Below are positions 16,178 to 31,383 of a stretch of DNA of 64,000 nucleotides, piece by piece. The stretch is taken from contig JAJRRU010000010.1 of NCBI GenBank assembly GCA_024279135.1, positions 372,001-436,000 on the forward strand, given 5' to 3'. Position 1 is the first letter of the stretch. Every line of letters begins with the position of its first letter. The notes under the pieces are model-generated. The model was not told where the DNA came from, made no database searches, and was given only the letters and a program-made list of their open reading frames with translations. The translations under genes were made by a program, and so were the position numbers. The stretch comes from Alphaproteobacteria bacterium (GTDB taxonomy: Bacteria > Pseudomonadota > Alphaproteobacteria > Rhodospirillales > Casp-alpha2).

Positions 16178-16219
16178 AAACCCCCGTCGATTGATCGTGC
16201 ATCGGTTAGAGGGGGGTTT
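16178..16219 (+). terminator. Hairpin after the universal stress protein gene
   Basis: AAACCCCC (16178-16185) and GGGGGTTT (16212-16219) can form an 8-bp stem around a 26-base loop, 40 bases after the stop codon. There is no further T-run. It may separate the ABC operon from the MmgE/PrpD gene. Confidence 0.45.
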
Positions 16220-16323
16220 CCATGAATTCAATTCAGGCCAGCAATAGATAATTTCTCTTGCAGAGTGCATGGTCAGTCATGAACACTGTTTGCGGTTCAA
16301 TACCCTGGGCAAGGAGTTCCGCG

Positions 16324-17694
16324 ATGGGCGTCCCTTTTAACGAGTTTATTTCACCATTGTGTTATGAGACCCTGCCCGAGGATGTCCGCAAGGTTATGTT
16401 GCGCAGCCTGCTCGATACTATCGGTGTGGCCGCCGTGGGCAGCACCACAAAGCTTTCTGTCATCGCCCGCCAATTTGCCAGTGAGCACATGGCCGCTGGC
16501 CCGGATGGACCGCAAGCCCGTCTGTTATTTGATGGCCGTGCCGTAAGCCCGGCCGGGGCCGCAATGGGGGGGGCTTTTACCATAGATTCCATCGATGCCC
16601 ATGATGGTTATTCCGCCGTCAAGGGCCATGCCGGATCGGCGGTCCTGCCCGGTGTGCTGGGTGTGGTCGATGGTCTGCGCAGCCAGGGAAAAGATGTTTC
16701 CAGCCACCAGTTCATCACCGCACTGGCCATCGGGTATGAGGTCGGCTACCGCGCAGGCCTGGCCATGCACGCCACGTGCGCCGACTATCATACATCGGGT
16801 GCCTGGACGGCGGTCGGTGTCGCGGCGGCGGCGGCGAAATTGCTGGGGCTGGAGTATGAACAGGTCCGCCATGCCATGGGCATTGCGGAATATCATGGCC
16901 CGCGCAGCCAGATGATGCGCTGCATCGATCATCCCTCCATGGTCCGCGACGGCGTGGGCTGGGGCGCGCCGTCGGGTGTCAGCGCGGCTTATATGGCCCG
17001 TGCCGGTTTCACCGGCGCACCGGCTATTACCGTGGAAGCCAGCGACGATGTGACGGCGGGTTTCTGGTCTGATCTGGGCGTGAACTGGCAAATCAACAAT
17101 ACCCATTATAAACAATATCCGGTTTGTCGCTGGGCACACCCGTCTATCGATGCCGGCGATAAATTAATGCGCGAACATAATCTTACCAGCGATCATATTG
17201 AGCGGGTCCGTATCTCGACATTCCACTATGCTACGCGGCTGGCGGGACATCAGCCCAAGTCCCTCGATGAGCTGACTTATGCCTTGGCATTCCCTCTGGC
17301 TATCATGATTGTAAAACGCCGGATCGGCGCCGAGGAACTGCAAGAAAGCATTCTCAGCGATGAGGAGGTTCTGCGCATCAGTATGGCCACGGAAATCGTC
17401 GATTCTGATCACTATACCAAGATCAGCACCGCCAAGCGCTGGGCCGATGTGACGCTCTATCTGAAAGACGGTCGCGAACTTCAGTCGCCACCCAACACCC
17501 CGCGGGGTGACCCGGACGACCCATTGTCAGACCGCGAAATCAGCACCAAATTCCATTTACTGGCCGACCCGGTTCTGGGCGCAACCAAGACCAGTGATAT
17601 TGAAAATTTGATACCGCAGGATGGTCAGGGAGAATTCGATCTGGCCCGGTTGCTGGACCTGATACTGGCCCCAGTGGACGAAAACCCTGTTTAG
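16324..17694 (+). CDS. MmgE/PrpD family protein
   Basis: A 456-residue protein of the MmgE/PrpD family, which includes 2-methylcitrate dehydratase, cis-aconitate decarboxylase and iminodisuccinate epimerase. Seen blocks: LRSLLDTIGVAAVGS, GAAMGGAFTIDSIDAHDGYS with the conserved Asp-His pair, KGHAGSAVLPGVLGV and HYKQYPVCRWAHPSIDA. The start is the ATG with AAGGAG 7 bases upstream; the open frame begins earlier at 16258 but without such a site. The true substrate cannot be told from sequence. It is convergent with the DeoR-type gene and overlaps its end by 4 bases. Confidence 0.88.
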   Translation: MGVPFNEFISPLCYETLPEDVRKVMLRSLLDTIGVAAVGSTTKLSVIARQFASEHMAAGPDGPQARLLFDGRAVSPAGAAMGGAFTIDSIDAHDGYSAVKGHAGSAVLPGVLGVVDGLRSQGKDVSSHQFITALAIGYEVGYRAGLAMHATCADYHTSGAWTAVGVAAAAAKLLGLEYEQVRHAMGIAEYHGPRSQMMRCIDHPSMVRDGVGWGAPSGVSAAYMARAGFTGAPAITVEASDDVTAGFWSDLGVNWQINNTHYKQYPVCRWAHPSIDAGDKLMREHNLTSDHIERVRISTFHYATRLAGHQPKSLDELTYALAFPLAIMIVKRRIGAEELQESILSDEEVLRISMATEIVDSDHYTKISTAKRWADVTLYLKDGRELQSPPNTPRGDPDDPLSDREISTKFHLLADPVLGATKTSDIENLIPQDGQGEFDLARLLDLILAPVDENPV

Positions 17695-18476
17695 TCGGTC
17701 ACCGTTATTTTAACTTTATTTGCCAGCAGTTTTTGTTCGAGCTTGCGCGGTGGGCGGGTTTCGCACACCAGCTCATTAACCTGGTTCATGTCGCACAAAC
17801 GTAACGGGGCAATCTTGCCGAATTTTCGGGAATCCGCCGCAATGCAGGTTTTCTCCGCTCGTTTGATAATGGCCCCGGCAAATTCCGCTTCACCCAGATG
17901 ATGGACCAGAATACCCTTGTCGGGATGGATTGCCGCGGCGGAAAAGATTGCATACCTGACCTCGAACTTTTTGACGAATTCCAGTGTTTCCGGCCCAAAG
18001 GCTCCGCCGTTCTGGTGGCGCAATTCACCACCGGCCATGAACACCTTGTTACCCGGATGAACAGCCAGAATGTTGGCGACGATGACGGAGTTCGTTACCA
18101 CAAAAAGGCTTTTGTGATCGCTCAGGGCATGGGCGATATAGGCCGTGGTCGAGCCATTGTCGAGGATTAGCGAATCGCCGTCCTTGATTTGACCGGCTAT
18201 GTGTTCGGCAATGCGTTGTTTGGCTTCCTTGCCTTCATTCATGCGTAAGGGGAAGGCGGCTTCCGACAGGGTATCAGGCAACATCACACCGCCGCGGATT
18301 TTTTGTAGCAAGCCTTCTTCGGCGAGAATTTTTACATTTCGGCGGATGGTTCCATCAGACACATCAAGCTCATTGGCCAGGTCGATTATGCTGCTGGTGC
18401 CGTGCATTCTGATGATCTTCAGAATTTCAGCCTGACGTTTGTTTGACAGGATCGTGGGTGGTTTGCGATGGATCAT
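17691..18476 (-). CDS. DeoR-family transcriptional regulator
   Basis: A 261-residue regulator. The N-terminal DeoR helix-turn-helix is KRQAEILKIIRMHGTSSI then NELDVSDGTIRRNVKILAEEGLL with the KIRGG wing. The C-terminal DeoRC sensor domain has DSLILDNGSTTAYIAHAL, FMAGGELRHQNGGAFGP and TCIAADSRKFGKIAPL. DeoR sensors usually bind sugar phosphates or other phosphorylated intermediates, which is of interest because the divergent operon carries two kinase genes. It probably controls that operon through the inverted repeats at 18548-18603. Confidence 0.92.
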   Translation of the reverse strand: MIHRKPPTILSNKRQAEILKIIRMHGTSSIIDLANELDVSDGTIRRNVKILAEEGLLQKIRGGVMLPDTLSEAAFPLRMNEGKEAKQRIAEHIAGQIKDGDSLILDNGSTTAYIAHALSDHKSLFVVTNSVIVANILAVHPGNKVFMAGGELRHQNGGAFGPETLEFVKKFEVRYAIFSAAAIHPDKGILVHHLGEAEFAGAIIKRAEKTCIAADSRKFGKIAPLRLCDMNQVNELVCETRPPRKLEQKLLANKVKITVTD

Positions 18477-18547
18477 AAATGCTCCAAAATTTCACTTATT
18501 TCTTTGTTATGATTGAATTATATAGGCAATTACCGCACAAACACAAC

Positions 18548-18603
18548 TTATTCCACAGTAAACCCACATATTTTGTTGGCTTTCTATGTTTTTTGTGGAA
18601 TAA
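18548..18603. promoter_or_regulatory. Candidate DeoR operator: two 10-bp inverted half-sites
   Basis: TTATTCCACA (18548-18557) and TGTGGAATAA (18594-18603) are perfect inverted copies, 36 bases apart, in the 208-bp gap between the DeoR-type gene and the betaine ABC operon. DeoR proteins are often tetramers that bind separated sites, so these could be its operator pair. No clear sigma-70 promoter could be fixed nearby. Confidence 0.5.
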
Positions 18604-18684
18604 TTGCTTGGTAGTTAAAATTGCTACTCAAAAATATTTTTGATCTATATATTTCGTGAAATTCTACTGCAGGGAGACTTTCTT

Positions 18685-19647
18685 ATGAAGCGCAACCTAT
18701 TGTTATCTCTTGGGCTGGCCGGTGCAATGGCGCTGGGCAGCCTGGCCTTAACATCGACCAGTGTATCGGCCGGTGTGGAATCCAATGACCCTATCAGGCT
18801 GACAATCCATGACTGGACCGGGCAATATGTCTCGACCCATCTTATGGGCGAAGTCCTGAAAAAAGCCGGTTACAATATTGAATATGTACAGGCCGATTAT
18901 ATCGCCCAGTTTGCCGGGCTCGAAACAGGCGATTTGCACGTCGCCATGGAAATGTGGGAAACCACCGGTAAGCAGGCAATGGAGGCTAGTCTGGCCACTG
19001 GAAAAACGATCGATCTTGGTGAAACCGGCATGGATGCCAAGGAAGACTGGTGGTATCCGTCTTATATGAAAGACGTCTGTCCTGGCCTGCCTGATTGGAA
19101 AGCTCTCAACGATTGCGCCGAATTATTTTCGACGGCTGAAACTGCACCCATGGGTCGCTATCTTGGTGGACCTGTGACCTGGGGCGGATTTGATGATGAG
19201 CGTGTCGAGGCTTTGGGTATGGATTTTGAAGTTGTTCATGCCGGAACGGACGCGGCTTTGTTCGCCGAACTGGAATCTGCCTATCAGCGTAAAGCACCGG
19301 TCCTGTTGTGGATTTATGCACCCCATTGGGCGGTTGCCAAATTCGACGGTGAATGGGTTGAATTCCCGGAATATACCGATGAATGTTATAATGATCCCAG
19401 TTGGGGCATGAATAAAGACATGGCCTATGACTGTGGCAAGCCCTTCGGCTGGATCAAGAAAGTCGGCTGGAAAGGTGGCGAAAAGAAATGGCCGGGTGCG
19501 TTCAAAGCCATTCGCAAGTTCCATATTGAGAACGATGCCATGAGCCAGATGATCGTCGAGATCGATCTCGAAGGCAAGGATCTGGATGCGGTTGTTACCA
19601 ACTGGATGGATAATAACAAGAGCACCTGGCAAGCCTGGATCAAATAA
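18685..19647 (+). CDS. Glycine betaine/proline-type ABC binding protein (ProX/OpuAC family)
   Basis: A 320-residue periplasmic protein. The signal peptide is MKRNLLLSLGLAGAMALG with cleavage near SVSA-G. The mature part has LTIHDWTGQYVSTHLMGEVL, VAMEMWETTGKQ, DWWYPSYM and LLWIYAPHWAVAKF, Trp/Tyr-rich blocks like those that cage quaternary ammonium groups in OpuAC proteins. The start is the ATG preceded by AGGGAG; an in-frame upstream start at 18640 would spoil the signal peptide. It is the first gene of the long operon divergent from the DeoR-type gene. The ligand is probably a betaine or choline-like amine, not fixed by sequence. Confidence 0.9.
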   Translation: MKRNLLLSLGLAGAMALGSLALTSTSVSAGVESNDPIRLTIHDWTGQYVSTHLMGEVLKKAGYNIEYVQADYIAQFAGLETGDLHVAMEMWETTGKQAMEASLATGKTIDLGETGMDAKEDWWYPSYMKDVCPGLPDWKALNDCAELFSTAETAPMGRYLGGPVTWGGFDDERVEALGMDFEVVHAGTDAALFAELESAYQRKAPVLLWIYAPHWAVAKFDGEWVEFPEYTDECYNDPSWGMNKDMAYDCGKPFGWIKKVGWKGGEKKWPGAFKAIRKFHIENDAMSQMIVEIDLEGKDLDAVVTNWMDNNKSTWQAWIK

Positions 19648-19664
19648 ATTCCGCTTGTGTCTTG

Positions 19665-19692
19665 ACGGGTGGCTGCGATTGCCGCCACCCGT
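19665..19692 (+). terminator. Intercistronic hairpin between binding-protein and ATPase genes
   Basis: ACGGGTGGC and GCCACCCGT form a perfect 9-bp, GC-rich stem with a 10-base loop, 17 bases after the binding-protein stop. No long T-run follows. It probably acts as a partial terminator or mRNA stabiliser. It covers a possible GTG start (19669) of the ATPase gene, which argues for a later start. Confidence 0.6.
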
Positions 19693-19722
19693 TTGCTCAC
19701 TCTAGGCGTGAACTGGACAGAC

Positions 19723-20793
19723 ATGCCCTTACAAACATCGAGTGATATTGATGCCCGACCAATCAAGTTATCTTGCAATGGTATCTGGAAGATATTTGGT
19801 GATGGCGGTGCACAATTATTAAAACAGACAAACAACGCACCCCAGGAAAATGACCTGATAGAACGCTCGCTGATCGCGGCTGTTCGCGATGCAAGCATCG
19901 AGGTTCGCGAGGGTGAAATTTTCATCATCATGGGGCTGTCGGGATCGGGTAAGTCGACCATGGTTCGGTGCCTGTCTCGGCTTATTGAGCCGACCGCCGG
20001 TGAGGTGTTGTTTGAAGGTCAGGATTTGCTGAAGGCAAACCCCAAGGAACTTATTCAAATTCGCCGCCACAAGATGGGCATGGTGTTCCAGCACTTTGCC
20101 CTGCTGCCCCATTTAACGGTTCTGGGCAACGTCGCTTTCCCTCTTGAAATCCAGGGGATCAAACGCCGTGAGCGAGAAGACCGCGCCCTGGAGGTCATCG
20201 AACTGGTTGGCCTGAAAGGGCGCGAAACCTATTATCCACGCGAATTATCCGGCGGCCAGCAACAACGTGTGGGCATTGCGCGCTCCCTGGCGGTGGAACC
20301 CGATATCTGGTTTCTGGATGAGCCTTTTTCCGCCCTCGATCCGTTGATCCGCCGTGAAATGCAGGATGAATTTCTGCGTCTGCAAAAAATGCTTCAGAAA
20401 ACCATTGTTTTTATTACCCATGATTTTGATGAAGCCATTCGTCTGGCCGATCATATTGCCATCATGAAAGACGGTGCGGTCATTCAGATTGGAACCCCGG
20501 AACAACTGGTATTGAACCCGGCGACCGAATATGTGGCGGAATTCACCAATGGCATTCCACGCGCCAAGGTTCTGTCGGTGGGCTCGGTCATGGAACCCGT
20601 CATGGAACCGGGGGGGAATGATTACTCAGGGCGTGTGTTCGCCGATATACGGCTTGAAGAACTGGGCGGCGATATTCTGCACGCCGACAAACCGTTTGCC
20701 GTGATTGATCGCAATGACCAGATTATTGGTCAGGTCACCCGGGACGTCGTTCTGGAAGTTTTGGTCGGTAGTTCTTCACAGAGTGATACATGA
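19723..20793 (+). CDS. Glycine betaine/proline-type ABC ATPase (ProV/OpuAA family)
   Basis: A 356-residue ATPase from the ATG chosen here; the frame is open to a GTG at 19669, which lies inside a hairpin. It has the ProV layout: KLSCNGIWKIFGDGG, an insertion, VREGEIFIIMGLSGSGKSTMVR with Walker A, ELSGGQQQRVGIARSLA signature and IWFLDEPFSALDP Walker B. After the ATPase fold comes a single CBS-like tail (FAVIDRNDQIIGQVT); ProV normally has two CBS modules, so the ionic-strength sensor may be reduced. The stop overlaps the permease start (ATGA). Confidence 0.9.
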   Translation: MPLQTSSDIDARPIKLSCNGIWKIFGDGGAQLLKQTNNAPQENDLIERSLIAAVRDASIEVREGEIFIIMGLSGSGKSTMVRCLSRLIEPTAGEVLFEGQDLLKANPKELIQIRRHKMGMVFQHFALLPHLTVLGNVAFPLEIQGIKRREREDRALEVIELVGLKGRETYYPRELSGGQQQRVGIARSLAVEPDIWFLDEPFSALDPLIRREMQDEFLRLQKMLQKTIVFITHDFDEAIRLADHIAIMKDGAVIQIGTPEQLVLNPATEYVAEFTNGIPRAKVLSVGSVMEPVMEPGGNDYSGRVFADIRLEELGGDILHADKPFAVIDRNDQIIGQVTRDVVLEVLVGSSSQSDT

Positions 20794-22763
20794 CCAGCCG
20801 CTTCACATCCTGGCAGATAGCCTGGGGTGTCGCCCTGTCTCTGGCGGTGGTCGGTTTTTTCCTGAAAGATATTGCACCGTGGGCTTTTAAATACCCCCGT
20901 GACTGGGTTTTCCCCTTACGGTTCTGGATCAGCGATTTTGTGAAATGGTTGTTGAACGATTTCGATCTTGGATTATTTACATTCAAGGAATTTACCCGCG
21001 CAATTTCCTGGCTTATCGAATTACCTTATATATTTGTGCGCTCTTTGCTATCGGATGGTTTCCGCGAGGGCCAGGGCAGCAACGCTATTCAGGTTTTCCC
21101 CCGGGTTTCCTGGATAGCCGTTATTTTGTTCGTGATTATGATCGGGCGTTACGCGCGGGACTGGAAACTGGCCGCTCTGGCTAGCGGGTGTTTTACCTAT
21201 CTCGCAGTTTTTGGCCAATGGGACAGCGCCATGGTCACCTTGAGCTCGATCATCATCGCGGTTCCCCTCGGGGTTGTCGGTGGTATCATGATTGGCGTGC
21301 TGGGCTATCGCTCGGCCACATTCAAGGCCATGATAATGCCGGTTCTGGACCTGATGCAGACCGTACCGGTTTTTGCCTATCTGGTGCCGATCCTGATCCT
21401 GTTTGGTTTTGGGCCGGTATCGGCCATGATCGCGACTGTTATCTATGCCATGCCACCCATGGTTCGTATCACCTTGCTTGCCCTCAGCCAGGTACCGGAA
21501 GAAATCGTTGAATTTGGCCGCATGGCCGGGTGCAATACCCGTCAATTGTTGTGGAAAGTGCTGATCCCGTCGGCCAAACCGGCCCTGATGATCGGGGTTA
21601 ATCAGGTCGTTATGTTGTCGCTGAACATGGTCATTATCGCCTCCATGATCGGTGCCGGTGGTCTGGGCTTCGATGTGCTGAACGCCTTGAAGCGATTGCG
21701 CATCGGTGAGGGTATCGAAGCCGGGCTGGCCATTACCCTGCTGGCCATAGCACTTGATCGGTTAAGCCAGGGCCTGGCCAATCGTCCGCCACCGGAACAT
21801 GGTTCCGAGGTGAAAAATTTTGCGGGTCGTCATCCATTTGCCATTGCCGCACTTGGTTTCATGTCCCTGACCTGGTTGATCGGGCTGGTGCTGCCTGCAT
21901 TCCAGACCTATCCGGAAGGTTTAGAGCTGACCACCGGAACGTTCTGGGGCGATACGGTAAGGTGGCTCAATATCAATTATTTTGACCAGATCGATGGTTT
22001 CAAAAACGCCGTGTTGCTGAATTTCATGATCCCCACAAAGCGGTTTTTGCTGTCGCTGCCCTGGCCCGTGGTGGTTGGACTTGTCGCCATGCTCGGCCTG
22101 CAACTGGGTGGTTGGCGGCTGGCCTTGCTATGCGGGGGAATGGCGTTCGTCATCGCCACTCTCGGCTTATGGCCCAAGGCCATGATCACCGTTTATTTGT
22201 GTGGACTGTCGGTTATTATCGCAGCAGCCATCGGTATTCCGGTGGGTATTATGGCGGCCCTGAATGAACGTTTTCACCGTGTCATTCAGGTTGTTGTCGA
22301 TACCTTGCAGACCCTGCCCAGTTTTGTCTATCTGATGCCCATCGTGATGTTATTCCGGGTCGGTGATTTTTCCGCCTTTATTGCCGTGATAGTTTACGCC
22401 ATTGCACCGGCTATTCGCTATACCGATCATGGTATCCGCCGGGTCCCGCCCCATCTGATCGAAGCGGCTACCCAGATGGGATGCAGCCCGTGGCAGATTT
22501 TATGGCGGGTTCGTCTGCCCATAGCAATGCCAGAGATTATGCTGGGCATTAACCAGACCATCATGATGGCGCTCAGTATGTTGGTTATTACCGCCCTGGT
22601 CGGAACCCGTGATCTCGGTCAGGAAGTCTATATAGCCCTGACCAAGGCCGATAGCGGTCGCGGTCTGGCTGCTGGAATGAGTGTCGCCTTTATCGCCATC
22701 ATCGCTGATCGATTGATCAACGCCTGGAGTGCTAAACGCAAAGCAGAATTGGGGCTCGACTGA
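20790..22763 (+). CDS. Fused double permease of the betaine-type ABC importer (ProW-ProW)
   Basis: A 657-residue membrane protein, about twice the usual ProW length, with two BPD_transp_1 domains in tandem. Copy one has PVLDLMQTVPVFAYLVPILILFG and the EAA-type loop EFGRMAGCNTRQLLWKVLIPSAKP. Copy two has DTLQTLPSFVYLMPIVMLF and EAATQMGCSPWQILWRVRLPIAMP. Both have the QVVMLSLNMVIIASMIGAGGLG-type block that follows. The two halves therefore probably form the transmembrane dimer from one chain. A variable N-terminal region of about 90 residues precedes them. The start overlaps the ATPase stop by 4 bases. Confidence 0.92.
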   Translation: MTSRFTSWQIAWGVALSLAVVGFFLKDIAPWAFKYPRDWVFPLRFWISDFVKWLLNDFDLGLFTFKEFTRAISWLIELPYIFVRSLLSDGFREGQGSNAIQVFPRVSWIAVILFVIMIGRYARDWKLAALASGCFTYLAVFGQWDSAMVTLSSIIIAVPLGVVGGIMIGVLGYRSATFKAMIMPVLDLMQTVPVFAYLVPILILFGFGPVSAMIATVIYAMPPMVRITLLALSQVPEEIVEFGRMAGCNTRQLLWKVLIPSAKPALMIGVNQVVMLSLNMVIIASMIGAGGLGFDVLNALKRLRIGEGIEAGLAITLLAIALDRLSQGLANRPPPEHGSEVKNFAGRHPFAIAALGFMSLTWLIGLVLPAFQTYPEGLELTTGTFWGDTVRWLNINYFDQIDGFKNAVLLNFMIPTKRFLLSLPWPVVVGLVAMLGLQLGGWRLALLCGGMAFVIATLGLWPKAMITVYLCGLSVIIAAAIGIPVGIMAALNERFHRVIQVVVDTLQTLPSFVYLMPIVMLFRVGDFSAFIAVIVYAIAPAIRYTDHGIRRVPPHLIEAATQMGCSPWQILWRVRLPIAMPEIMLGINQTIMMALSMLVITALVGTRDLGQEVYIALTKADSGRGLAAGMSVAFIAIIADRLINAWSAKRKAELGLD

Positions 22764-22764
22764 T

Positions 22765-23649
22765 ATGTCAGGTGATACCACAACCTTGGTGAAAAATCTG
22801 TCATGCTGGAATACACCGGTCGATCCCATACCGCTCGGGGGCGGGATTACCAATACCAATTTCACGGTGCAGGATGGCGAGCGGAAATATGTCGTGCGCA
22901 TCGGTGAAGATATTCCGGTCCATGGTATCATGCGCTTTAATGAATTATCGGCCAGTCGTGCGGCTCACGGGGCGGGCCTGTCTCCGGAGGTTTTCCATAG
23001 TGAAAATGGCGTGCTGGTTATCGACTTTATCGCCAGCCGGACATTATCACCCGCCGACATTCGAAACCTGGTCATGCTGGAACAGATCGTGCCGATTATC
23101 CGCCGTGTGCATCATGACATTCCAAGATATCTGGAAGGCCCCGTCCTGAGTTTCTGGGTGTTTCAGGTGTTGCGCGATTATCGCCGCACCCTGCGTCAGG
23201 CTAACAGCCGGATGATCGCCGATCTGGATGGTTTGGAAAGCATCGCCCATGAACTGGAACACGCCGTCGGGTCGGTGCATCTGGTGTTTGGCCATAATGA
23301 TTTGCTGGCGGCAAATTTTCTCGATGATGGGCAACGTCTGTGGATTATCGATTGGGACTATGCCGGTTTCAACAGTCCCCTGTTTGATCTCGCAAACCTG
23401 GCGTCCAACAATGAATTCGACGTGGATCTGGAACACAGATTACTGGAACTTTATTTCCACGATGGCGTCCCGGACAAAGTGTGGCAATCGTTCAGCGCCA
23501 TGAAATGTGCGTCGCTTCTTCGTGAGGCTATGTGGAGCATGGTATCAGAAATTCATTCCACACTGGACTTCGATTATGTGGCCTACACCACAGAAAATCT
23601 GGAACGGTTTAATACGGTATATGAACATTACAAATTGAATAGGAGCTAA
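22765..23649 (+). CDS. Choline/ethanolamine kinase-like phosphotransferase (first copy)
   Basis: A 294-residue protein of the APH/choline-kinase fold. It has a nucleotide loop IPLGGGITNTNFTVQDGERKY, the catalytic Brenner motif FGHNDLLAANFL (H-x-D-4x-N) and the metal-binding, choline-kinase-style IDWDYAGFNSPLFDLANL. It should transfer phosphate from ATP to a hydroxyl of a small amino-alcohol such as choline or ethanolamine. I chose the ATG one base after the permease stop; a longer frame starts inside the permease gene. The flavoprotein gene begins 1 base after its stop, so it is firmly in the operon. Confidence 0.87.
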   Translation: MSGDTTTLVKNLSCWNTPVDPIPLGGGITNTNFTVQDGERKYVVRIGEDIPVHGIMRFNELSASRAAHGAGLSPEVFHSENGVLVIDFIASRTLSPADIRNLVMLEQIVPIIRRVHHDIPRYLEGPVLSFWVFQVLRDYRRTLRQANSRMIADLDGLESIAHELEHAVGSVHLVFGHNDLLAANFLDDGQRLWIIDWDYAGFNSPLFDLANLASNNEFDVDLEHRLLELYFHDGVPDKVWQSFSAMKCASLLREAMWSMVSEIHSTLDFDYVAYTTENLERFNTVYEHYKLNRS

Positions 23650-23650
23650 A

Positions 23651-26095
23651 ATGAGTTCACTGCCCACCCATGCCCGTGTAGTGATTATCGGTGGCGGGAT
23701 CATCGGTTGTAGTACGGCCTATCACCTTGGCAAACTTGGCTGGAGTGATGTGGTTGTCCTGGAAAAACACAAACTGACCAGTGGATCTACCTTTCACGCC
23801 GCGGGGCTGGTCGGGCAATTGCGCAGCAGTGCAAATATAACCCAGTTACTGAAATACAGTGTTGAGCTGTACGATACACTGGAAGCCGAAACCGGCCTGG
23901 GCACGGGCTGGAAGATGAACGGTGGTTTGCGGCTGGCCTGTAATTCACAACGCATGATCGAGATTGAACGACAGGCTACCACGGCCCAGAGCTTCGGTCT
24001 GGAGATGAATGTTTTGAGCGCTCAGCAGGCTCAGGATTTATGGCCGTTGATGGATATCTCAGACGTTGTCGGGGCGGCCTTCCTGCCCAGCGATGGTCAG
24101 GCCAATCCTTCTGACATTACCATGGCGCTAGCCAAGGGTGCGCGCAATTGCGGTATTCAAATTGTCGAGGACTGTACTGTTACCGGGATTGTCAAGAAGG
24201 ACGGACGAGCCTGTGGCGTGACCACCTCGCTGGGTGATATTGAGTGCGAGGTCGTGGTTAATTGTGGTGGACAATGGGCCGGTGAAATAGGCCGTATGGC
24301 CGGGGTCACCGTGCCACTGATTTCTGTCGAGCACCAGTTCATGATTACCGAGCTTATCGAGGGCATCACCAGCGACCTGCCCACCTTGCGCGATCCCGAC
24401 CGGCTGATCTATTTCAAGGAAGATGTTGGCGGTCTGGTCATGGGCGGGTACGAGCCAAATCCCATCGGCTGGGCCAAGGACGGCATTCCGGAAGGCTTTA
24501 ACTTTACCTTGCTGGAATCCAACTGGGATCATTTTGAACAACTGATGTTACAGGCTCTGGAGCGTGTTCCGGCACTGGAAACTGCCGGGGTCAAGACCCT
24601 GACCAATGGACCGGAATCCTTTACCCCCGATGGCAATTTTATCCTCGGTGAAGCACCAGAACTGGATAATTTCTTTGTCGGTGCCGGGTTTAACGCCTTC
24701 GGTATCGCATCGGGTGGCGGGGCTGGTAAAGCCCTGGCTGAATGGATTGTCGGTGGCGAGCCTTCGCTGGATCTGTGGCCGGTCGATATCCGGCGCTTCG
24801 GTAATCATCACCGTGATCAGGACTGGGTACGGACCCGGACACTGGAGCTTTACGGTAAGCATTACACCATGTCGTGGCCCTTCGAGGAGCACGAGAGTGC
24901 CCGGCCAACCCGCACCTCTGCCCTGTATGAACGGTTGGTAGCCGATGGTGCATGTTTTGGCGAAAAGATGGGTTGGGAAAGGCCAAACTGGTTTGCCCCT
25001 CCCGGTGTGGAACCAAAAGACGTTTATTCATTCGGGCGCCAGAACTGGTTTGAGCATGTGGGGCAAGAACACAAAGCCGCCCGCGAGCGGGTGGTGCTCT
25101 ATGACCAAAGCTCTTTTGCCAAGTTCATGGTTAGCGGTCCCGGTGCGCAAGAAGCCCTGAGCTGGATTTGTGCCAATGATATCGCCAAACCACCGGGGGC
25201 TTTGATCTATACCCAGATGCTCAATGTCCGAGGCGGGATTGAGTGCGATCTGACGGTGGTTCGTCTGGCCGAAGACCAGTTCTATCTGGTCACCGGAACA
25301 GGATATCGAACCCATGATTTCCAGTGGATCCGGCGCAATATTCCGGATGGCTGTGATGTGACGCTGGATGATGTCACCGACAGCATGTGCACCTTGTCCC
25401 TGATGGGGCCGCGCGCTCGCGATGTTTTGTCACGGGTCACTAAAACGGATGTTTCCAATGCATCGTTTCCGTTTGGAAGTTACCAGCAAATTGTCATCGC
25501 TGAGGCAACCGTCAAAGCTTTGCGGATCACCTATGTTGGTGAACTGGGCTGGGAATTTCATTTCCCCATTGAGCACGCCCTGACGGTGTATCAGGCATTG
25601 ATGTCCGCCGGGCAGGATTGCGGTATAACCAATGCCGGATACCGGTCTATTGAGTCCCTGCGACTGGAAAAAGGTTACCGGGCATGGTCTTCGGATATCG
25701 GACCGGATTATTCGCCCTTTGAATCCGGTTTGGGCTGGGCGGTCAAGTTGAAAAGTAATATTCCGTTTTTGGGCCGCGAGGCGGCTGTTGCCCTGAAGGA
25801 TAACCCGCGCACCAAATTGCTGGCTTGTTTCACGGTTGATGACCCGGATGTGGTGTTGCTGGGACGGGAAACCATTTACCGAAACGGTGAGCGGGTCGGC
25901 TGGCTGAGCAGTGGCGGGTATGGCTATACCATCGCCAAGGGTATCGGATATGGCTATGTACGTAATGGGGATGGTGTCACCCGTGATTATCTTGCCGCCG
26001 GAAACTATGAACTGGACGTTGCAACCAGACGGGTTCCATGTACGATACATTTTCAGGCTCTTGTCGATCCGGCAATGGAGCGTATCAAGGCCTGA
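23651..26095 (+). CDS. Dimethylglycine/sarcosine dehydrogenase-like flavoprotein (DAO + GcvT domains)
   Basis: An 814-residue two-part enzyme. Residues 8-390 are a DAO-type FAD domain: VVIIGGGIIGCSTAYHLGKLG, then TSGSTFHAAGLVGQL, in which His 49 is at the position that carries covalent FAD in dimethylglycine dehydrogenase. After a short FAO_M-type linker, residues from about 430 form a GcvT folate-binding domain (MLNVRGGIECDLTVVRL, ITYVGELGWEFHFP, ESLRLEKGYRAW), with its C-terminal barrel (RVGWLSSGGYGY) at the end. Such enzymes oxidise an N-methyl group and pass the carbon to tetrahydrofolate. Substrate could be dimethylglycine, sarcosine or another N-methyl amine. It lies between two kinase genes. 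Confidence 0.88.
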   Translation: MSSLPTHARVVIIGGGIIGCSTAYHLGKLGWSDVVVLEKHKLTSGSTFHAAGLVGQLRSSANITQLLKYSVELYDTLEAETGLGTGWKMNGGLRLACNSQRMIEIERQATTAQSFGLEMNVLSAQQAQDLWPLMDISDVVGAAFLPSDGQANPSDITMALAKGARNCGIQIVEDCTVTGIVKKDGRACGVTTSLGDIECEVVVNCGGQWAGEIGRMAGVTVPLISVEHQFMITELIEGITSDLPTLRDPDRLIYFKEDVGGLVMGGYEPNPIGWAKDGIPEGFNFTLLESNWDHFEQLMLQALERVPALETAGVKTLTNGPESFTPDGNFILGEAPELDNFFVGAGFNAFGIASGGGAGKALAEWIVGGEPSLDLWPVDIRRFGNHHRDQDWVRTRTLELYGKHYTMSWPFEEHESARPTRTSALYERLVADGACFGEKMGWERPNWFAPPGVEPKDVYSFGRQNWFEHVGQEHKAARERVVLYDQSSFAKFMVSGPGAQEALSWICANDIAKPPGALIYTQMLNVRGGIECDLTVVRLAEDQFYLVTGTGYRTHDFQWIRRNIPDGCDVTLDDVTDSMCTLSLMGPRARDVLSRVTKTDVSNASFPFGSYQQIVIAEATVKALRITYVGELGWEFHFPIEHALTVYQALMSAGQDCGITNAGYRSIESLRLEKGYRAWSSDIGPDYSPFESGLGWAVKLKSNIPFLGREAAVALKDNPRTKLLACFTVDDPDVVLLGRETIYRNGERVGWLSSGGYGYTIAKGIGYGYVRNGDGVTRDYLAAGNYELDVATRRVPCTIHFQALVDPAMERIKA

Positions 26096-26119
26096 AATGG
26101 GGAATAGGGGATAAGTAAA

Positions 26120-27037
26120 ATGGAAGAAGTGCGTCGACAGCTTGCTCGTATTGAGATGTTTCAGGGCCGCGAGGCAGAGGCACAAATCGAGCGTCTGGGG
26201 GGATTGACGAACTTGGTCTACAAGATCAGCCTGGATGGTGAGGCGTATATCTTGCGCATTGCCGGTGAAGGAACCGATGAGATTATTGACCGGGTGATCG
26301 AAAAACATAATGCCAGGGTCGCAGCGAATGCCGGCATGTCGGCTGATGTGCTGTTTTTCGATGCTTCCGATGGGCTGATGTTGGCAAGCTATATTCCTGG
26401 CGAGACCATGAGTGCCGAAAAGTTTACCAATTCAGCGGGCAGTGCGGCTCGCGCCGCCCGGGCCTTTAAAATCATTCATACCTGCGGCCAGGAATTCAAG
26501 TTCCGGTTCGAACTGTTTGCCATGATGGACGACTATCTCAAGGTGCTGGATGATCTGGGCGCAACACTTCCAGACGGTTATCACGATGTGGTTCACGAGG
26601 CCCAGGCGGTCCGTCGGGCCATCGATGCGCACCCTGCCGATCTGGTGCCCTGTCATTGTGATCCGCTTTGTGAAAATTTCATTGACGATGGTGAGCGGAT
26701 GTGGATTATCGATTGGGAATATTCCGGGATGAATGATCCACTGTGGGACCTGGGCGATCTGTCCATCGAGGCTGGTTTCACAGAGGCACAAGACCGCGAA
26801 ATGATGGAGGCGTATTTTGATAATCAACCCACCGAAGCACAGTTTGCCCGCATGGTCATTTACAAGGCTATGGCGGATCTTCTGTGGACATTATGGGGGT
26901 TGATCCAACATGCCAATAACAACCCCGTCGACGATTTCTGGGCCTATTCTATTGGCCGGTTTGAACGGTGTAAAAAATTGATGGCCTCGCCTGAATTTAC
27001 CCGGCACCTTGAAGCCATGAATAGTACACATGAATAA
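26120..27037 (+). CDS. Choline/ethanolamine kinase-like phosphotransferase (second copy)
   Basis: A 305-residue relative of the gene at 22765. It has the nucleotide loop RLGGLTNLVYKISLDGEAYILR, the catalytic motif VPCHCDPLCENFIDDG (H-x-D-4x-N) and IDWEYSGMNDPLWDLGDLS, which is very close to the choline-kinase signature. It starts 24 bp after the flavoprotein stop. The two copies share the motifs but differ widely elsewhere, so they are old paralogues with probably different substrates. Phosphorylation of an amino-alcohol is the likely reaction. Confidence 0.88.
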   Translation: MEEVRRQLARIEMFQGREAEAQIERLGGLTNLVYKISLDGEAYILRIAGEGTDEIIDRVIEKHNARVAANAGMSADVLFFDASDGLMLASYIPGETMSAEKFTNSAGSAARAARAFKIIHTCGQEFKFRFELFAMMDDYLKVLDDLGATLPDGYHDVVHEAQAVRRAIDAHPADLVPCHCDPLCENFIDDGERMWIIDWEYSGMNDPLWDLGDLSIEAGFTEAQDREMMEAYFDNQPTEAQFARMVIYKAMADLLWTLWGLIQHANNNPVDDFWAYSIGRFERCKKLMASPEFTRHLEAMNSTHE

Positions 27038-27056
27038 TACAATGCATCAGTCGCAC

Positions 27057-27089
27057 GTATAAAAACATGTATAAAAGATTTGTATAACC
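27057..27089 (+). repeat. Three phased GTATAA direct repeats before the aldehyde dehydrogenase gene
   Basis: GTATAAAA occurs at 27057 and 27069, and GTATAACC at 27082, so starts are 12 and 13 bases apart. They lie in the 74-bp gap between the second kinase and the aldehyde dehydrogenase genes, 22-55 bases before the start codon. They could be a regulator site or an internal promoter for the second half of the cluster. Confidence 0.35.
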
Positions 27090-27111
27090 AACCTGGTTTA
27101 ACCATAAGGAT

Positions 27112-28506
27112 TTGACCATGCTTAGAATAATTTCTCCGGTTGACGGCAGTGTTTATGCGGAACGTCCCTACGCCGATCCGCAAGCAATTCGTGATACCCT
27201 GACCAGTGCCAGTGAGGCGCAAAATTCCTGGAAGCTGGTCAGTATTGCCGAGCGTGGGGCTATTTGCTCAAAAGCAATTGATGCCTTTGTCGCCGACAAG
27301 GATCGCATCAGCGATGAACTGGCCTGGCAAATGGGTCGGCCCATTCGTTTTGGCCCCGGTGAAGTGGGCGGATTTGAAGAACGCGCCCGTTATATGATCT
27401 CCATTGCCGAGCAGGCGCTCAAACCGGTTGATGTGGGGCCCAAGGATGGGTTCGTGCGTTATATCAAACGCGAACCTGTGGGTGTGGTGCTGACCATTGC
27501 ACCGTGGAATTTCCCGTTTATGACGGCGGTTAATTCGATTATTCCGGCGCTTATGGCGGGCAATGCAGTGATCTTGAAACACGCCCAGCAGACCCTGTTG
27601 TGCGCCGAACGGATCGCGGACGCTTTTGTCGCCGCCGGATTACCCGAAGGCCTGTTTCAGGTTCTGCACATGTCACACGACCAGACAGCCGAGGTTATCC
27701 AGTCTCCAGAGATCAACTTTGTTGCTTTTACCGGGTCGGTCCCGGCGGGTGCCACCATGGAACGTAATGCTGCGGGCCGGTTCATCGGTATGGGACTGGA
27801 GCTGGGCGGCAAGGATCCGGCTTACGTTTGCGCCGATGTGGATGTAAACTATGCGGCTGAAAATCTGGTCGATGGGGCGTTTTTCAATACCGGGCAGTCG
27901 TGCTGCGGCATCGAGAGAATTTATGTTCACGAGGATGTTTATGACGCCTTTGTGGCGCGGTTCTGTGAGGTGGTTCGCGGCTATGTGCTGGGCAGTCCCA
28001 TGGACCCGGAAACTACTTTGGGACCGTTGGTCACGACCAAGGCCGCCGACTTTGTCCGGGGCCAGATTGATGATGCTGTGGCCGCCGGTGCCACGGCTTT
28101 GATCGATACGTCGAAATTTACCCGTGATGAGGCTGGCACACCCTATATGGCACCACAGGTTCTGGTCGATGTGGATCATTCCATGCGGGTCATGACCGAA
28201 GAAAGTTTCGGTCCGGTGGTCGGTATTATGAAGGTCAGGGACGATGATCAGGCCGTCGAGTTGATGAACGATAGTGAGTTTGGCTTGACCGCGTCGATCT
28301 GGACGTCTTCACAGGACACCGCTATCGCCATCGGTGACCGGATTAATACCGGGACTTTTTTCATGAACCGGTGTGACGCACTGGACCCGGCACTGGCCTG
28401 GACGGGGGTTAAAAATACCGGACGGGGTTGCACTTTATCCAGTGTAGGTTATGAAGCCATCACGCGGCCCAAGTCCTATCATTTGCGTGTCGATATTGAT
28501 AAATAA
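27112..28506 (+). CDS. NAD(P)-dependent aldehyde dehydrogenase
   Basis: A 464-residue member of the ALDH superfamily. VLTIAPWNFPFMTAVNSIIPAL is the cofactor-binding motif; NFVAFTGSVPAG and GLELGGKDPAYV carry the general-base Glu; the catalytic Cys is C264 in NTGQSCCGIERI, followed by a second Cys. ESFGPVVGIM is the C-terminal signature. It oxidises an aldehyde to the acid. The next gene is an alcohol dehydrogenase, so the two probably act in sequence on an alcohol released from the imported amine, or on formaldehyde. The family is too broad for a precise substrate. Confidence 0.92.
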   Translation: MTMLRIISPVDGSVYAERPYADPQAIRDTLTSASEAQNSWKLVSIAERGAICSKAIDAFVADKDRISDELAWQMGRPIRFGPGEVGGFEERARYMISIAEQALKPVDVGPKDGFVRYIKREPVGVVLTIAPWNFPFMTAVNSIIPALMAGNAVILKHAQQTLLCAERIADAFVAAGLPEGLFQVLHMSHDQTAEVIQSPEINFVAFTGSVPAGATMERNAAGRFIGMGLELGGKDPAYVCADVDVNYAAENLVDGAFFNTGQSCCGIERIYVHEDVYDAFVARFCEVVRGYVLGSPMDPETTLGPLVTTKAADFVRGQIDDAVAAGATALIDTSKFTRDEAGTPYMAPQVLVDVDHSMRVMTEESFGPVVGIMKVRDDDQAVELMNDSEFGLTASIWTSSQDTAIAIGDRINTGTFFMNRCDALDPALAWTGVKNTGRGCTLSSVGYEAITRPKSYHLRVDIDK

Positions 28507-28526
28507 GTTTCTTTAAGGAAAACACC

Positions 28527-29714
28527 ATGACCATGTCTTTGTCCCTTGATCCGGAAACCCTTGTTGGCAACTGGAACTTTCCTACCACTATAAAATTCGG
28601 ACCCGGGCGGATTGTCGAACTGCCCGCAGTCTGTGCCGATCAGGGTATGTCAAATCCATTGATTATTACCGATCCGGGCTTGCGTGATTTGCCCATGACC
28701 AAGGCCATTCTGGACAACTTTAAGGCGGCAAACATTCAATGTGGACTGTTTTCAAATATAAAACCAAACCCGGTCGGGCAGAATATTGACGATGGTGTGG
28801 TCGCATATAAATCCGGCGGTCATGACGGTGTTATCGCCTATGGTGGTGGCAGCGGCCTGGATGCGGCAAAGGCCGTAGCCCTGATGGTCGGTCAGGACCG
28901 ACCGCTGTGGGACTTTGAGGATGAAGGTGACAACTGGACCAGGGTCAAGCTCGATGGGGTGGCCAGCGTGGTCGCCGTGCCTACCACCTCGGGTACCGGA
29001 TCGGAAGTTGGTCGGGCCTCGGTGATCATTAATGAAGAGGCACACCTGAAGAAAATTATTTTCCATCCCTCCATGTGTCCGGCCATTGTGATCGCCGATC
29101 CGGAATTGACCCTTGGTCTGCCGGCCAAGATCACGGCGGCCACCGGCATGGACGCGTTGTCGCATAATCTGGAAGCCTTTTGTGCGCCAGGCTTCCATCC
29201 CATGGCCCGTGGCATGGCGGTTGAAGGTATCAGGATCACCAAAGACTGGCTGCCCGAAGCAACTCGCAATGGTAGCAACATTTCTGCCCGCGCCATGATG
29301 ATGGCAGCCTCAACCATGGGGGCCACCGCTTTTCAGCGCGGCCTGGGCGGTATGCACGCGCTGGCTCATCCATTGGGGGCTACTTTTGATGCCCATCACG
29401 GGCTGCTCAATGCCATTTTGATGCCTTATATATTATGGGCCAACAAATCGGTTATCGAGGACGACATCTGTTATCTGGGCGGTTGCATCGGACTGGCCAA
29501 GAGCTTCGATGCGGTGGTTGACTGGATTCTTGGTTTGCGTGAAGAACTGGGTATTCCCAACGATCTTGCGGCTATTGGAATTCCAGAGGATTGCGTCGAT
29601 GATATTGGTGCCAAGGCCGAGGTCGATCCGGCGGCTGGTGGTAATCCCATCACGTATACCGGCTCGCAATATGCGGCGATCTGCCGCAAGGCTGTTCTTG
29701 GTCAGCACGGCTGA
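28527..29714 (+). CDS. Iron-containing (group III) alcohol dehydrogenase
   Basis: A 395-residue enzyme with the family layout: KFGPGRIVELPAV at the start, an NAD-binding GGGSGLDAAKAVAL, VPTTSGTGSEVGRASVI, and metal ligands in ATGMDALSHNLEAFCAPG and GGMHALAHPLGATFDAHHGLLNA. It oxidises an alcohol or reduces an aldehyde with NAD(P). It begins 20 bp after the aldehyde dehydrogenase gene with AAGGAAA before the ATG. Group III enzymes act on substrates as different as methanol, propanediol, hydroxypropionate and hydroxyethylphosphonate-like compounds, so the substrate is open. Confidence 0.92.
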   Translation: MTMSLSLDPETLVGNWNFPTTIKFGPGRIVELPAVCADQGMSNPLIITDPGLRDLPMTKAILDNFKAANIQCGLFSNIKPNPVGQNIDDGVVAYKSGGHDGVIAYGGGSGLDAAKAVALMVGQDRPLWDFEDEGDNWTRVKLDGVASVVAVPTTSGTGSEVGRASVIINEEAHLKKIIFHPSMCPAIVIADPELTLGLPAKITAATGMDALSHNLEAFCAPGFHPMARGMAVEGIRITKDWLPEATRNGSNISARAMMMAASTMGATAFQRGLGGMHALAHPLGATFDAHHGLLNAILMPYILWANKSVIEDDICYLGGCIGLAKSFDAVVDWILGLREELGIPNDLAAIGIPEDCVDDIGAKAEVDPAAGGNPITYTGSQYAAICRKAVLGQHG

Positions 29715-29744
29715 TCTTTATTAATACAAAAGGAAAAACAGACT

Positions 29745-30500
29745 ATGACAATTCGTGCGGTAACCTTTGATCTATGGGATACCATCGTTCATGACGATTC
29801 GGATGAGCCCAAACGCGCCGCCAAGGGCTTGCGCAGCAAACGCGACGAGCGTCGGCATCTGGTATGGCAGGCTCTTAACACCGTCGAGCCCATTGATCTG
29901 GCTTTGGTGGTGGCGGCTTATGATGTGGCCGATGCCGCCTTTAACGTGGTGTGGAAGGAAAATCATATCAACTGGACCGTGGACCAGCGTATGCGGGTTA
30001 TCCTGAGCGGTCTGGGTCGGACACTGCCCGATGATGTGATGGCCAAGCTGATCCATGACACCGGACGCATGGAGGTTAACATTCCGCCCGATCTGATCGA
30101 TGGCATCAAAGAGGCTCTGGAAGATTTACACGGTCGTTACAAGTTGTGCATTGTCTCGGACGCCATCGTCACACCGGGAACCGGTTTGCGCGACCTGTTG
30201 GAAGCCTATGGCCTGAAACAGTATTTTACCGGCTTTGCTTTTTCTGATGAGGTCGGTCATTCCAAACCCCACAAGTCCATGTTTGACAGTGCCGCCCAGC
30301 AGCTCGGTGTGGAACTTCATGAAATCGTTCACATTGGCGATCGGGACCATAATGACGTGAAGGGCCCCCATGCCATCGGTGCCAAGGCCATTTTGTTTAC
30401 TGCCACCCGCGCCGATGATCGTGATACAACCACAGCCGATGCGATCTGTGACCACCACCGTGACCTGGCCGCGACCATTGACCGGCTGGCCGCCAGCTAA
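29745..30500 (+). CDS. HAD-superfamily hydrolase lacking the second motif-I aspartate
   Basis: A 251-residue HAD protein. Motif I reads TFDLWDTIVHDD: the nucleophile Asp is present, but Trp stands where phosphatases have the second, acid-base Asp. Motif II is LCIVSDAIV, motif III includes the Lys in GHSKPHKSMFD, and motif IV is VHIGDRDHNDVKGPHAIG. Absence of the second Asp is typical of dehalogenases and some other non-phosphatase HADs, so calling it a phosphatase would be unsafe. It sits between the alcohol dehydrogenase and amidotransferase genes with short gaps, so it is probably in the same operon. Confidence 0.82.
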   Translation: MTIRAVTFDLWDTIVHDDSDEPKRAAKGLRSKRDERRHLVWQALNTVEPIDLALVVAAYDVADAAFNVVWKENHINWTVDQRMRVILSGLGRTLPDDVMAKLIHDTGRMEVNIPPDLIDGIKEALEDLHGRYKLCIVSDAIVTPGTGLRDLLEAYGLKQYFTGFAFSDEVGHSKPHKSMFDSAAQQLGVELHEIVHIGDRDHNDVKGPHAIGAKAILFTATRADDRDTTTADAICDHHRDLAATIDRLAAS

Positions 30501-30519
30501 ATAGAATAGGATTATATAA

Positions 30520-31383
30520 ATGACTGAACAAATCAGATTTCTGGTCATCGATGGCTACGCGCTGGCTGGACGGGAAGACCTGAAGGCCGGCGGGGCATCC
30601 ACGGCTGGCGAGTTGTATGAAAGAATGCTCAAAAAATGTCTGCCCGGTTGCGCTGTAGATGTTTTGTTTCCGGCGGATCCCGGAGCAAAATTACCCCAAG
30701 GTGCCGATATCGCTCAATACGACGGTATCGCCTGGACCGGTTCCAGCCTGACGGTTCACAAACCCGATGAGAATGTCACACCCCAGATCGAGTTTGCCAA
30801 AGCCGCCTTTAAAGCCAGGGTGCCCAGTTTCGGCAGTTGCTGGGCGGCCCAGATCGCCGTGGTGGCAGCTGGTGGAATTTGTGCCGTGAACCCGCGGGGC
30901 CGCGAGATGGGTTTTGCCCGCAAGATTTCTCTCACCTCGGAAGGCCGCGGCCACCCGCTTTATTACGGCAAAAATTCGGTGTTTGATGCCTACATCAGCC
31001 ACGATGACGAAATTACCCATGTGCCGCCTGGCGGTATTGTGCTGGCCTCAAATGCCTATACCCGGGTCCAGTCGGTTACCGTGACCCATCAGGGCGGGGT
31101 ATTTTGGGGGTTGCAGTATCATCCGGAATACGATCTGCATGAAATGTCCCGGCTGTGTTATTGCCGCAAGCAAAAACTCACCGACAAGGGGTTTTTCCGC
31201 TCGACCGACGACGCTCAGGTTTTTGTCGATCAACTGGAGATCCTGTTCCAGGACCCCGGCCGCACGGATATATCCTGGCTGCTGGGCATTGATGAGGACA
31301 TCATGAACGAAGATATTCGTCTAGCCGAGGTCCGCAACTGGATCGAACAACTGGTGATCCCTACGCGTATCGCCCGGCGTTAA
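30520..31383 (+). CDS. Class-I glutamine amidotransferase-like hydrolase
   Basis: A 287-residue GATase-1 protein of the GMP-synthase-like type. The nucleophile is C107 in PSFGSCWAAQIAVVAAGG, and the His-Glu pair is in LQYHPEYD (H201, E203). No partner synthase domain is fused, so it may act alone as a gamma-glutamyl or amide hydrolase. The last 70 residues extend beyond the amidotransferase fold. It is the final gene of the cluster; a run of 13-bp repeats begins at its stop codon. The role in amine breakdown is inferred from position only. Confidence 0.85.
   Translation: MTEQIRFLVIDGYALAGREDLKAGGASTAGELYERMLKKCLPGCAVDVLFPADPGAKLPQGADIAQYDGIAWTGSSLTVHKPDENVTPQIEFAKAAFKARVPSFGSCWAAQIAVVAAGGICAVNPRGREMGFARKISLTSEGRGHPLYYGKNSVFDAYISHDDEITHVPPGGIVLASNAYTRVQSVTVTHQGGVFWGLQYHPEYDLHEMSRLCYCRKQKLTDKGFFRSTDDAQVFVDQLEILFQDPGRTDISWLLGIDEDIMNEDIRLAEVRNWIEQLVIPTRIARR

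Follow-up and report, generated by a model that had tools for sequence, protein, structure and literature searches.

A cluster of eleven genes in a 64,000-nucleotide stretch of an alphaproteobacterial genome (Rhodospirillales; assembly GCA_024279135.1, contig JAJRRU010000010.1, positions 372,001 to 436,000; hereafter the window) is predicted to break down small methylated ethanolamines, which derive from membrane lipids. We consider it probable that this cluster, at positions 17691 to 31383, imports, phosphorylates and N-demethylates N-methyl- or N,N-dimethylethanolamine and feeds the product into a gamma-glutamyl route to glycine, with every substrate and reaction deduced from what was observed, namely the families of the genes, their conservation, their links by genomic context and their invariant residues. 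The preliminary description had proposed import, phosphorylation, demethylation and chain oxidation of some methylated amino-alcohol, which is also the best reading here, narrowed in three respects: ethanolamine is the most likely carbon skeleton, oxidation of the alcohol probably takes place on a gamma-glutamyl conjugate, and the kinase probably supplies an acidic substrate to the demethylase.

In the proposed route, N-methylethanolamine and/or N,N-dimethylethanolamine would enter through an importer resembling TmoX, and the kinases kinA and kinB would phosphorylate the hydroxyl group of the methylated ethanolamine. The dimethylglycine dehydrogenase (DMGDH)-like protein dmgA could then oxidise the phosphorylated amine with its flavin and so remove N-methyl groups, the carbon being captured on folate and the electrons probably passing to electron transfer flavoprotein (ETF); a paralogue, dmgB, is encoded elsewhere in the genome. 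Phosphoethanolamine would be dephosphorylated by a HAD hydrolase of the cluster, or in some relatives by an inositol monophosphatase (IMPase)-family enzyme, and the ethanolamine joined to glutamate by a glutamine-synthetase-like ligase on another contig (G000:C12, where G000 is the window's own genome and C numbers are its contigs; L numbers below denote the loci, or sequence stretches, compared). The conjugate may be oxidised by the window's iron-dependent alcohol dehydrogenase (Fe-ADH) and then its aldehyde dehydrogenase (ALDH), and split into glycine and glutamate either by the class I glutamine amidotransferase (GATase)-type protein of the cluster or by an N-formylglutamate-amidohydrolase-family protein at C12. 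The DeoR-type regulator probably senses a phosphorylated intermediate.

Organisation and conservation of the cluster

Profile searches recovered all eleven genes in the order and families described earlier, confirming a DeoR-type regulator that faces ten co-directional genes. The DeoR/GlpR-type gene deoR (17691..18476, minus strand; PF00455 150 bits, PF08220 52 bits) diverges from the plus-strand genes across 163 bp. These follow one another at 21 bp (sbp/atp), -4 (atp/perm), -35 (perm/kinA), 1 (kinA/dmgA), 24 (dmgA/kinB), 74 (kinB/aldh), 20 (aldh/feadh), 30 (feadh/had) and 19 bp (had/gat). The tight joints reported previously, with gaps of 1-31 bp, therefore hold for most of the cluster and fail at kinB/aldh. 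The kinA open reading frame (ORF) opens at 22729, and an in-frame ATG at 22765, which turns the overlap with perm into a gap of 1 bp, is the likelier start.

The core of the cluster, comprising DeoR, the TmoX-like importer, kinA and dmgA, recurs across Alpha- and Gammaproteobacteria, mostly marine. Scanning a single genome per species confirmed 344 kinA relatives, the best 80 of which were kept as loci; neighbours were counted by tblastn because earlier ORF calling had picked antisense ORFs in GC-rich loci. Of the 74 loci in which 1500 bases or more follow kinA, 63 encode dmgA within 500 bp downstream, and one further locus (L005) carries the paralogue dmgB in its place. The fused permease lies directly upstream of kinA in 46/76 testable loci, and the binding protein and the DeoR gene are found near kinA in 39/64 and 36/64, respectively. 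Since these loci had been found through kinA, a reverse check was made from the demethylase side: in a plasmid collection, the 19 best dmg matches (61-69% identity) were the same records as the 19 best kinA matches, with the two genes adjacent in every one, although some are near-identical strains, and the next dmg matches drop to 56% or less. The search for the same gene order that the preliminary description had proposed thus found parts of it in dozens of other genomes, which excludes chance for the core as well as co-location in a single strain.

Across a class-wide sample of 289 genomes (completeness filter 90; kinA at E≤1e-40, Fe-ADH at E≤1e-80), kinA was detected in 34 and Fe-ADH in 98, the latter being present in 32/34 kinA genomes compared with 66/255 others. 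Shared ancestry accounts at least in part for this co-occurrence, as kinA-less members of several of the mixed families listed carry feadh too. The two kinA genomes without Fe-ADH are G236, where the 19 kb extracted around kinA show no dmg, and G034, which has kinA and dmg. Streamlined genomes of 1.4 Mb carry core genes too, with binding protein, permease, kinA, dmg, EtfB and EtfA in G025 (L125), and kinA, dmg, EtfB and EtfA in G216 (L126).

Several loci depart from this arrangement. The binding protein and fused permease occur together with no ATPase match between or nearby in L009, L041, L046, L056, L075 and L125. In L044, L053 and L060, two large genes (1462-1837 and 702-706 aa) precede kinA; dmgA was not found in L053 and L060, and the sequence of L044 ends too soon to tell. 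Five loci with titles naming SAR324, Deltaproteobacteria or a proteobacterium (L010, L012, L013, L015, L034) have kinA and dmg followed by genes of ~305 and ~260 aa, identified in L010, where the scan was run, as an EamA-type transporter and a class I methyltransferase; no ABC importer was found in the available sequence of these five. Around the window's cluster, a biotin synthase gene (bioB, 31451-32494) follows directly on the other strand, and two Ruegeria plasmids (L082, L091) carry a bio operon close to their orthologous cluster, on the opposite side from the window's bioB. Upstream, positions 13756-17694 encode a fused peptide-type ABC ATPase, a universal stress protein and an MmgE/PrpD-family protein, with no link to the cluster seen.

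Kinases and folate-linked demethylases

Two choline-kinase-family kinases flank the demethylase gene. In kinA (22765..23649; PF01633 85 bits; PDB matches 3dxq and the LicA-type 4r77), residues H189, D191, N196 and D208 (numbered from 22729) are invariant in 25/25 aligned rows, and we take them to be the catalytic His-x-Asp...Asn and Asp, so that the protein combines the choline/ethanolamine kinase profile with its catalytic motif. These aligned columns were relied on because two regular expressions for the kinase motif matched just 63/90 and 42/90 kinA rows. In a tree of every fourth of the 90 kinA rows and all other rows, kinB (26120..27037; PF01633 91 bits) falls apart from kinA (100/99), within a fork of 21 rows that has moderate support (90/86). 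Among the 40 loci that extend at least 9 kb to both sides, 11 contain both kinB and dmgB and none has one without the other, and DeoR, dmgB and kinB form a unit in each of the four plasmid regions examined around kinB (L135-L138). Further kinases of the family are encoded elsewhere: the window's own genome has two neighbouring ones together with a DeoR gene (L095:7179-9875, G000:C6), adjoining genes that by size are candidates for a peptide-type ABC transporter, and Paracoccus methylovorus p1 (L090) carries two phosphotransferases with a DeoR gene, a histidinol-phosphatase gene and an ABC transporter.

The putative flavin- and folate-dependent N-demethylase dmgA (23651..26095) has the DAO, FAO_M, GCV_T and GCV_T_C architecture of dimethylglycine dehydrogenase, with human DMGDH (5l46) matching at E=2e-164. 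It shares with the mitochondrial enzyme (5l46, 4p9s) both the domain order and a His segment that presumably links FAD. By alignment, however, the Tyr, His, Phe, His and Arg of human DMGDH are replaced by Q56, R58, W87, K88 and K256. Of 71 dmgA rows, at least 97% have Q56, R58, W87 and K256, as do 5/5 relatives linked to 2-aminoethylphosphonate (AEP) genes and 18/18 dmgB rows. Lys occupies position 88 in at least 97% of dmgA and 5/5 AEP-linked rows, and Lys or Arg does so in 16/18 dmgB rows. Most of the nine paralogues in the same genome differ at these five positions. R58 and K88 are candidates for holding a phosphate group.

In a tree of 86 of the 104 demethylase rows (18 near-duplicate or short rows were dropped), dmgA forms a clade of 56 rows with an SH-aLRT of 100, every one from a kinA locus. 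The neighbouring group of eight rows comprises four AEP-linked rows, the own paralogues L106-L108 and L074; several of its branches are long, and the tree tool warns on their placement. The AEP-linked proteins are encoded on Sinorhizobium, Ensifer and Aminobacter plasmids (L098, L099, L120, L121, L122) and share 55-56% identity with dmgA. In all five regions, AEP genes occur no more than ~8 kb from dmg and a DeoR gene lies upstream of dmg, either directly or one gene away, and no kinA-family kinase was found in any of them at E≤1e-3. We suggest that these proteins are candidate folate-linked demethylases of N-methyl-AEP, which would be a phosphonate look-alike of phospho-N-methylethanolamine, and their relationship to dmgA suggests an acidic substrate for dmgA as well. 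In Aminobacter MSH1 and A. niigataensis, a Rieske-type oxygenase, a reductase and a dmgB-like gene lie upstream of the DeoR gene and the dmgA relative, a set that could plausibly form a ladder of tri-, di- and monomethyl steps. The window's own genome encodes dmgB (L105; L123:8528-12505, G000:C17) beside an MttB-family methyltransferase gene and a LysR gene; a scan of neighbouring C17 genes revealed no recognisable corrinoid protein. Our reading assigns the dimethyl step to dmgB and the monomethyl step to dmgA.

Phosphorylation ahead of demethylation has a precedent in Eubacterium limosum, where MthK phosphorylates first and MthB demethylates phosphocholine but not choline, which the authors explain, in the available passages, as a need for an acidic substrate (PMC12155760). 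By analogy, the window kinase probably gives its demethylase an acidic substrate. The MthK/MthB/MthC/MthA system and the cluster would have in common a choline-kinase-like phosphorylation before the methyl group moves to folate (PMC12155760). However, the E. limosum system is anaerobic and uses a cobalamin-dependent MttB-family enzyme on quaternary phosphocholine (PMC12155760), whereas the window demethylase is a DMGDH-like flavoprotein and should accordingly act on a secondary or tertiary amine, whose skeleton is probably consumed. A choline-kinase-family kinase does sit beside a demethylase in the 63 loci and 19 plasmid records above, and a single MttB query found no match at E≤1e-5 in 102 loci, the demethylase being DMGDH-like; the cluster is not a member of the MthK/MthB type, though it may work alike. 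The N-methyl-AEP oxidoreductases PbfB, PbfC and PbfD likewise oxidise an N-methylamine bearing a phosphono group by flavin chemistry, but they yield phosphonoacetaldehyde, and no DMGDH-type enzyme with a folate domain appears in the passages available (PMC10590968). A general aerobic scheme can be imagined in which substrates are acidified and then demethylated, with kinases making phospho-amines that the DMGDH-like branch strips (dmgB at the dimethyl, dmgA at the monomethyl step), relatives stripping N-methyl-2-aminoethylphosphonates, and the MttB homologue perhaps extending the range to phosphocholine; we regard this generalisation as doubtful.

The gamma-glutamyl route and downstream steps

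Context in related loci links the core to ethanolamine. L021 encodes on one strand, in order, an EtoX-like TRAP transporter, a glutamine-synthetase-like ligase, an ALDH, an Fe-ADH, kinA and dmgA, with a stretch of ~2 kb without an identified gene between ligase and ALDH. In L033 the order is amidohydrolase-family gene, permease, kinA, dmg, ethanolamine-permease-like gene, ligase and ALDH, the first and last genes being cut by contig ends and the second permease scoring 359.5 bits, below the ethanolamine permease model cut-off of 381.75. Nitratireductor pOM-1 (L093) has DeoR, kinA and dmg followed by a gene annotated EutH, and on Salipiger pPABY1 the core precedes genes for ETF, FolD, PurU, an amidohydrolase-family protein, the ligase, ALDH, Fe-ADH and GlyA. 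Ligase, ALDH and Fe-ADH are also found near the core in L005, L036 and L067, and L005 and L067 carry a second ligase type, ~30% identical to the first. A published ethanolamine route in Phaeobacter sp. MED193 proceeds through EtoVWX, ETAGA, GAADDH, GETADH and GGAH via gamma-glutamylethanolamide, and its locus has a gene order matching that of Ruegeria B32 (PMC10132767), in which genes for RpiR, an amidohydrolase-family protein, an EtoX-like TRAP transporter, ligase, ALDH and Fe-ADH follow one another.

The window's aldh (27112..28506; Aldedh) is 57% identical to the Salipiger ALDH encoded beside the ligase, with the next copies in the genome at 39% or less, and probably encodes a gamma-glutamyl-aminoacetaldehyde dehydrogenase. 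The adjacent feadh (28527..29714; Fe-ADH), a probable gamma-glutamylethanolamide dehydrogenase, is 51% identical to the Salipiger Fe-ADH and 52% to that of the Eto-type locus of Ruegeria B32; the next copy in the genome reaches 30%. Judged against the Salipiger and Ruegeria B32 proteins rather than those of MED193 itself, both belong to the subfamilies of this route, and they appear to be the only close copies of the presumed gamma-glutamylethanolamide enzymes in the genome. The glutamine-synthetase-like ligase (L088/L094; 56% identity to the Salipiger ligase) and an N-formylglutamate-amidohydrolase-family gene are both located outside the window at G000:C12. Since the sole close ALDH and Fe-ADH lie in the window and the ligase and amidohydrolase-family genes at C12, the two loci could together make up the ethanolamine route. 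The Fe-ADH and ALDH would be of the same kind as in MED193 (PMC10132767), with the ligase and amidohydrolase-family gene elsewhere in the genome; unlike the MED193 locus, the window adds an importer, two kinases and an N-demethylase, has no TRAP transporter and encodes a class I GATase.

The last two genes were found in five loci (window, L002, L004, L005, L020). The HAD hydrolase had (29745..30500; PF00702 65 bits) is a possible, weakly supported phosphatase. An IMPase-family gene lies beside DeoR or dmgA in nine loci (L007, L051, L054, L073, L077, L078, L082, L083, L091) and beside kinA in two more (L071, without dmg, and L133). The GATase-type gene gat (30520..31383; PF00117 53 bits) encodes a possible gamma-glutamylglycine hydrolase with Cys and His-Glu motifs; its PDB matches are led by GMP synthases and include plant gamma-glutamyl peptidase 1 (E=2.4e-5). 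The motif was confirmed in two of four relatives, and no 'GLQYHPE' string occurs in L004 and L005. ETF genes are found near the core in L083, L125 and L126, and ETF-like genes at 37-40% identity in L023 and L029. FrmR is encoded with the core on three Shinella plasmids. Together with the FolD and PurU genes above, these electron-transfer and one-carbon neighbours speak for the proposed route. As a separate observation, the Shinella plasmid L102 has a small Rieske-domain gene and a sterol-desaturase-family gene annotated ~2.3 kb from the core.

Importer ligand, alternative readings and significance

The importer consists of an OpuAC-type binding protein (sbp, 18640..19647; PF04069 159 bits), a ProV/ChoV-type ATPase (atp, 19669..20793; TIGR01186 355 bits, above the cut-off of 326.6) and a fused permease with two transport domains (perm, 20790..22763; PF00528 in two stretches, TIGR03416 417 bits in two stretches). 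The closest solved relative of sbp by sequence is TmoX (4xz6, E=6e-83), the trimethylamine N-oxide (TMAO)-binding protein of the TmoXWV importer, from which the window importer differs in its fused permease. The TmoX pocket is formed by W55, W102, F106, E131, W177, F220 and W222 (PMC8918994); sbp has W59, W106, G110, E135, W181, W224 and Y226, invariant in 49/49 sequences (the window and 48 others retained after filtering by length and score). The aromatic cage and the Glu131 equivalent are thus kept, with four of seven positions shared and F106 changed to G, F220 to W and W222 to Y. As the changed positions are themselves invariant, the pocket suggests one ligand for the whole sbp family, other than TMAO.

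These changes bear on the idea that the cluster serves import of TMAO or glycine betaine with ordinary demethylation and no amino-alcohol. TmoX as the closest solved binding protein and the DMGDH-like dmgA would suit it, but neither compound offers a hydroxyl group for two kinases and ethanolamine genes adjoin the core in relatives, making this very improbable. A TMAO route was rejected on the differing pocket and the unexplained kinases, and simple glycine-betaine uptake on the conservation of catabolic genes together with the importer. A flavoprotein of the DMGDH type cannot oxidise a quaternary nitrogen, which is why choline or betaine as its direct substrate, considered in the preliminary description, is unlikely and direct flavin demethylation of choline was rejected; moreover, neither the MttB query nor one Rieske query found a match at E≤1e-5 in the 102 loci, almost all of which were kinA loci.

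Choline could instead be imported and converted by kinA to phosphocholine, with the C17 MttB-type enzyme taking the first methyl group and dmgB and dmgA the other two. The conserved cage and Glu of sbp are compatible with choline, which TmoX binds (PMC8918994), the own dmgB adjoins the MttB-family gene, and E. limosum performs the first part of such chemistry (PMC12155760). Nevertheless, nothing ties the C17 MttB to phosphocholine, the scanned C17 neighbours include no recognised corrinoid protein, the MttB and Rieske queries were negative as above, and the genome also carries betA; we therefore view this as unlikely. The betA gene scores above its curated cut-off at G000:C17:93643, outside the cluster, so the earlier statement that the usual choline genes are missing holds within the cluster, where no GMC-type gene was found among the proteins and the ALDH falls far below the betaine aldehyde dehydrogenase cut-off, but for betA not genome-wide. 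Contigs C18 and C28 of the same genome encode GCV_T proteins that match sarcosine oxidase alpha in size (1023 and 1025 aa).

Choline and ethanolamine kinases commonly feed lipid synthesis, and the kinases might act after demethylation, in ethanolamine trapping or lipid synthesis, leaving dmgA to act on free N-methylethanolamines. The atypical motif of had, which casts doubt on the phosphatase step, would fit this order. It is rather improbable, given the nine loci with an IMPase-family gene beside DeoR or dmgA and the acidic substrate suggested by the AEP-linked relatives; no cytidylyltransferase was recognised among the annotated neighbours, though no search was aimed at one. The route might also serve a different methylated amine that bears a hydroxyl, for example trimethylhomoserine derived from betaine lipids, in which case Fe-ADH and ALDH would work on a C4 chain. 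This would agree with the best NCBIfam models of the two enzymes (4-hydroxybutyrate and succinate-semialdehyde dehydrogenases), both below cut-off. Against it, similar Fe-ADH and ALDH genes accompany the ligase and the amidohydrolase-family gene in three of the plasmid loci opened, one with an EtoX-like TRAP transporter, and we give this C4 alternative hardly any credence.

Several observations weigh against the methylated-ethanolamine route itself. Ten of the 74 kinA loci (L011, L053, L060, L062, L063, L065, L070, L071, L072, L074) have neither dmg gene nearby, and, in the sequence available, kinB occurs without dmgB in the window, L004, L017, L085 and L101. The window has no dmgB between dmgA and kinB, where its close relative L002 has one, and the second kinase is unexplained if a single phosphorylation serves all steps. 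Within the 289 genomes, the type-1 ligase shows no significant co-occurrence with kinA (7/34 compared with 32/255, p=0.19), and the ETF, Eat, EutH and TRAP links sit in relatives, outside the window. The had protein carries at residue 9 a D-L-W-D-T motif, presumably the HAD catalytic motif, with Trp at the usual second Asp, which is normally catalytic; L002, L004, L005 and L020 have the same motif. Finally, the aromatic cage of sbp would suit choline too.

Each part of the cluster is of a known kind, and the combination appears to be undescribed. A TmoX-like importer with a kinase and a DMGDH-like demethylase feeding a gamma-glutamylethanolamide route was not found in searches of the open-licence PubMed Central literature, which turned up parts of it but are weak evidence of absence, and neither 'kinase' nor 'ethanolamine' occurs in the available text of a choline paper (PMC4744692). 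Marine catabolic routes have been published for the head groups of phosphatidylethanolamine and phosphatidylcholine (PMC10132767), and the same searches yielded none for the methylated intermediates between ethanolamine and choline head groups. The gene set described here is a concrete candidate for their breakdown. If the proposed route is correct, the cluster would link lipid, nitrogen and one-carbon turnover, and a use would be predicted for a DMGDH-like branch named just 'FAD-dependent oxidoreductase' in the plasmid records opened.

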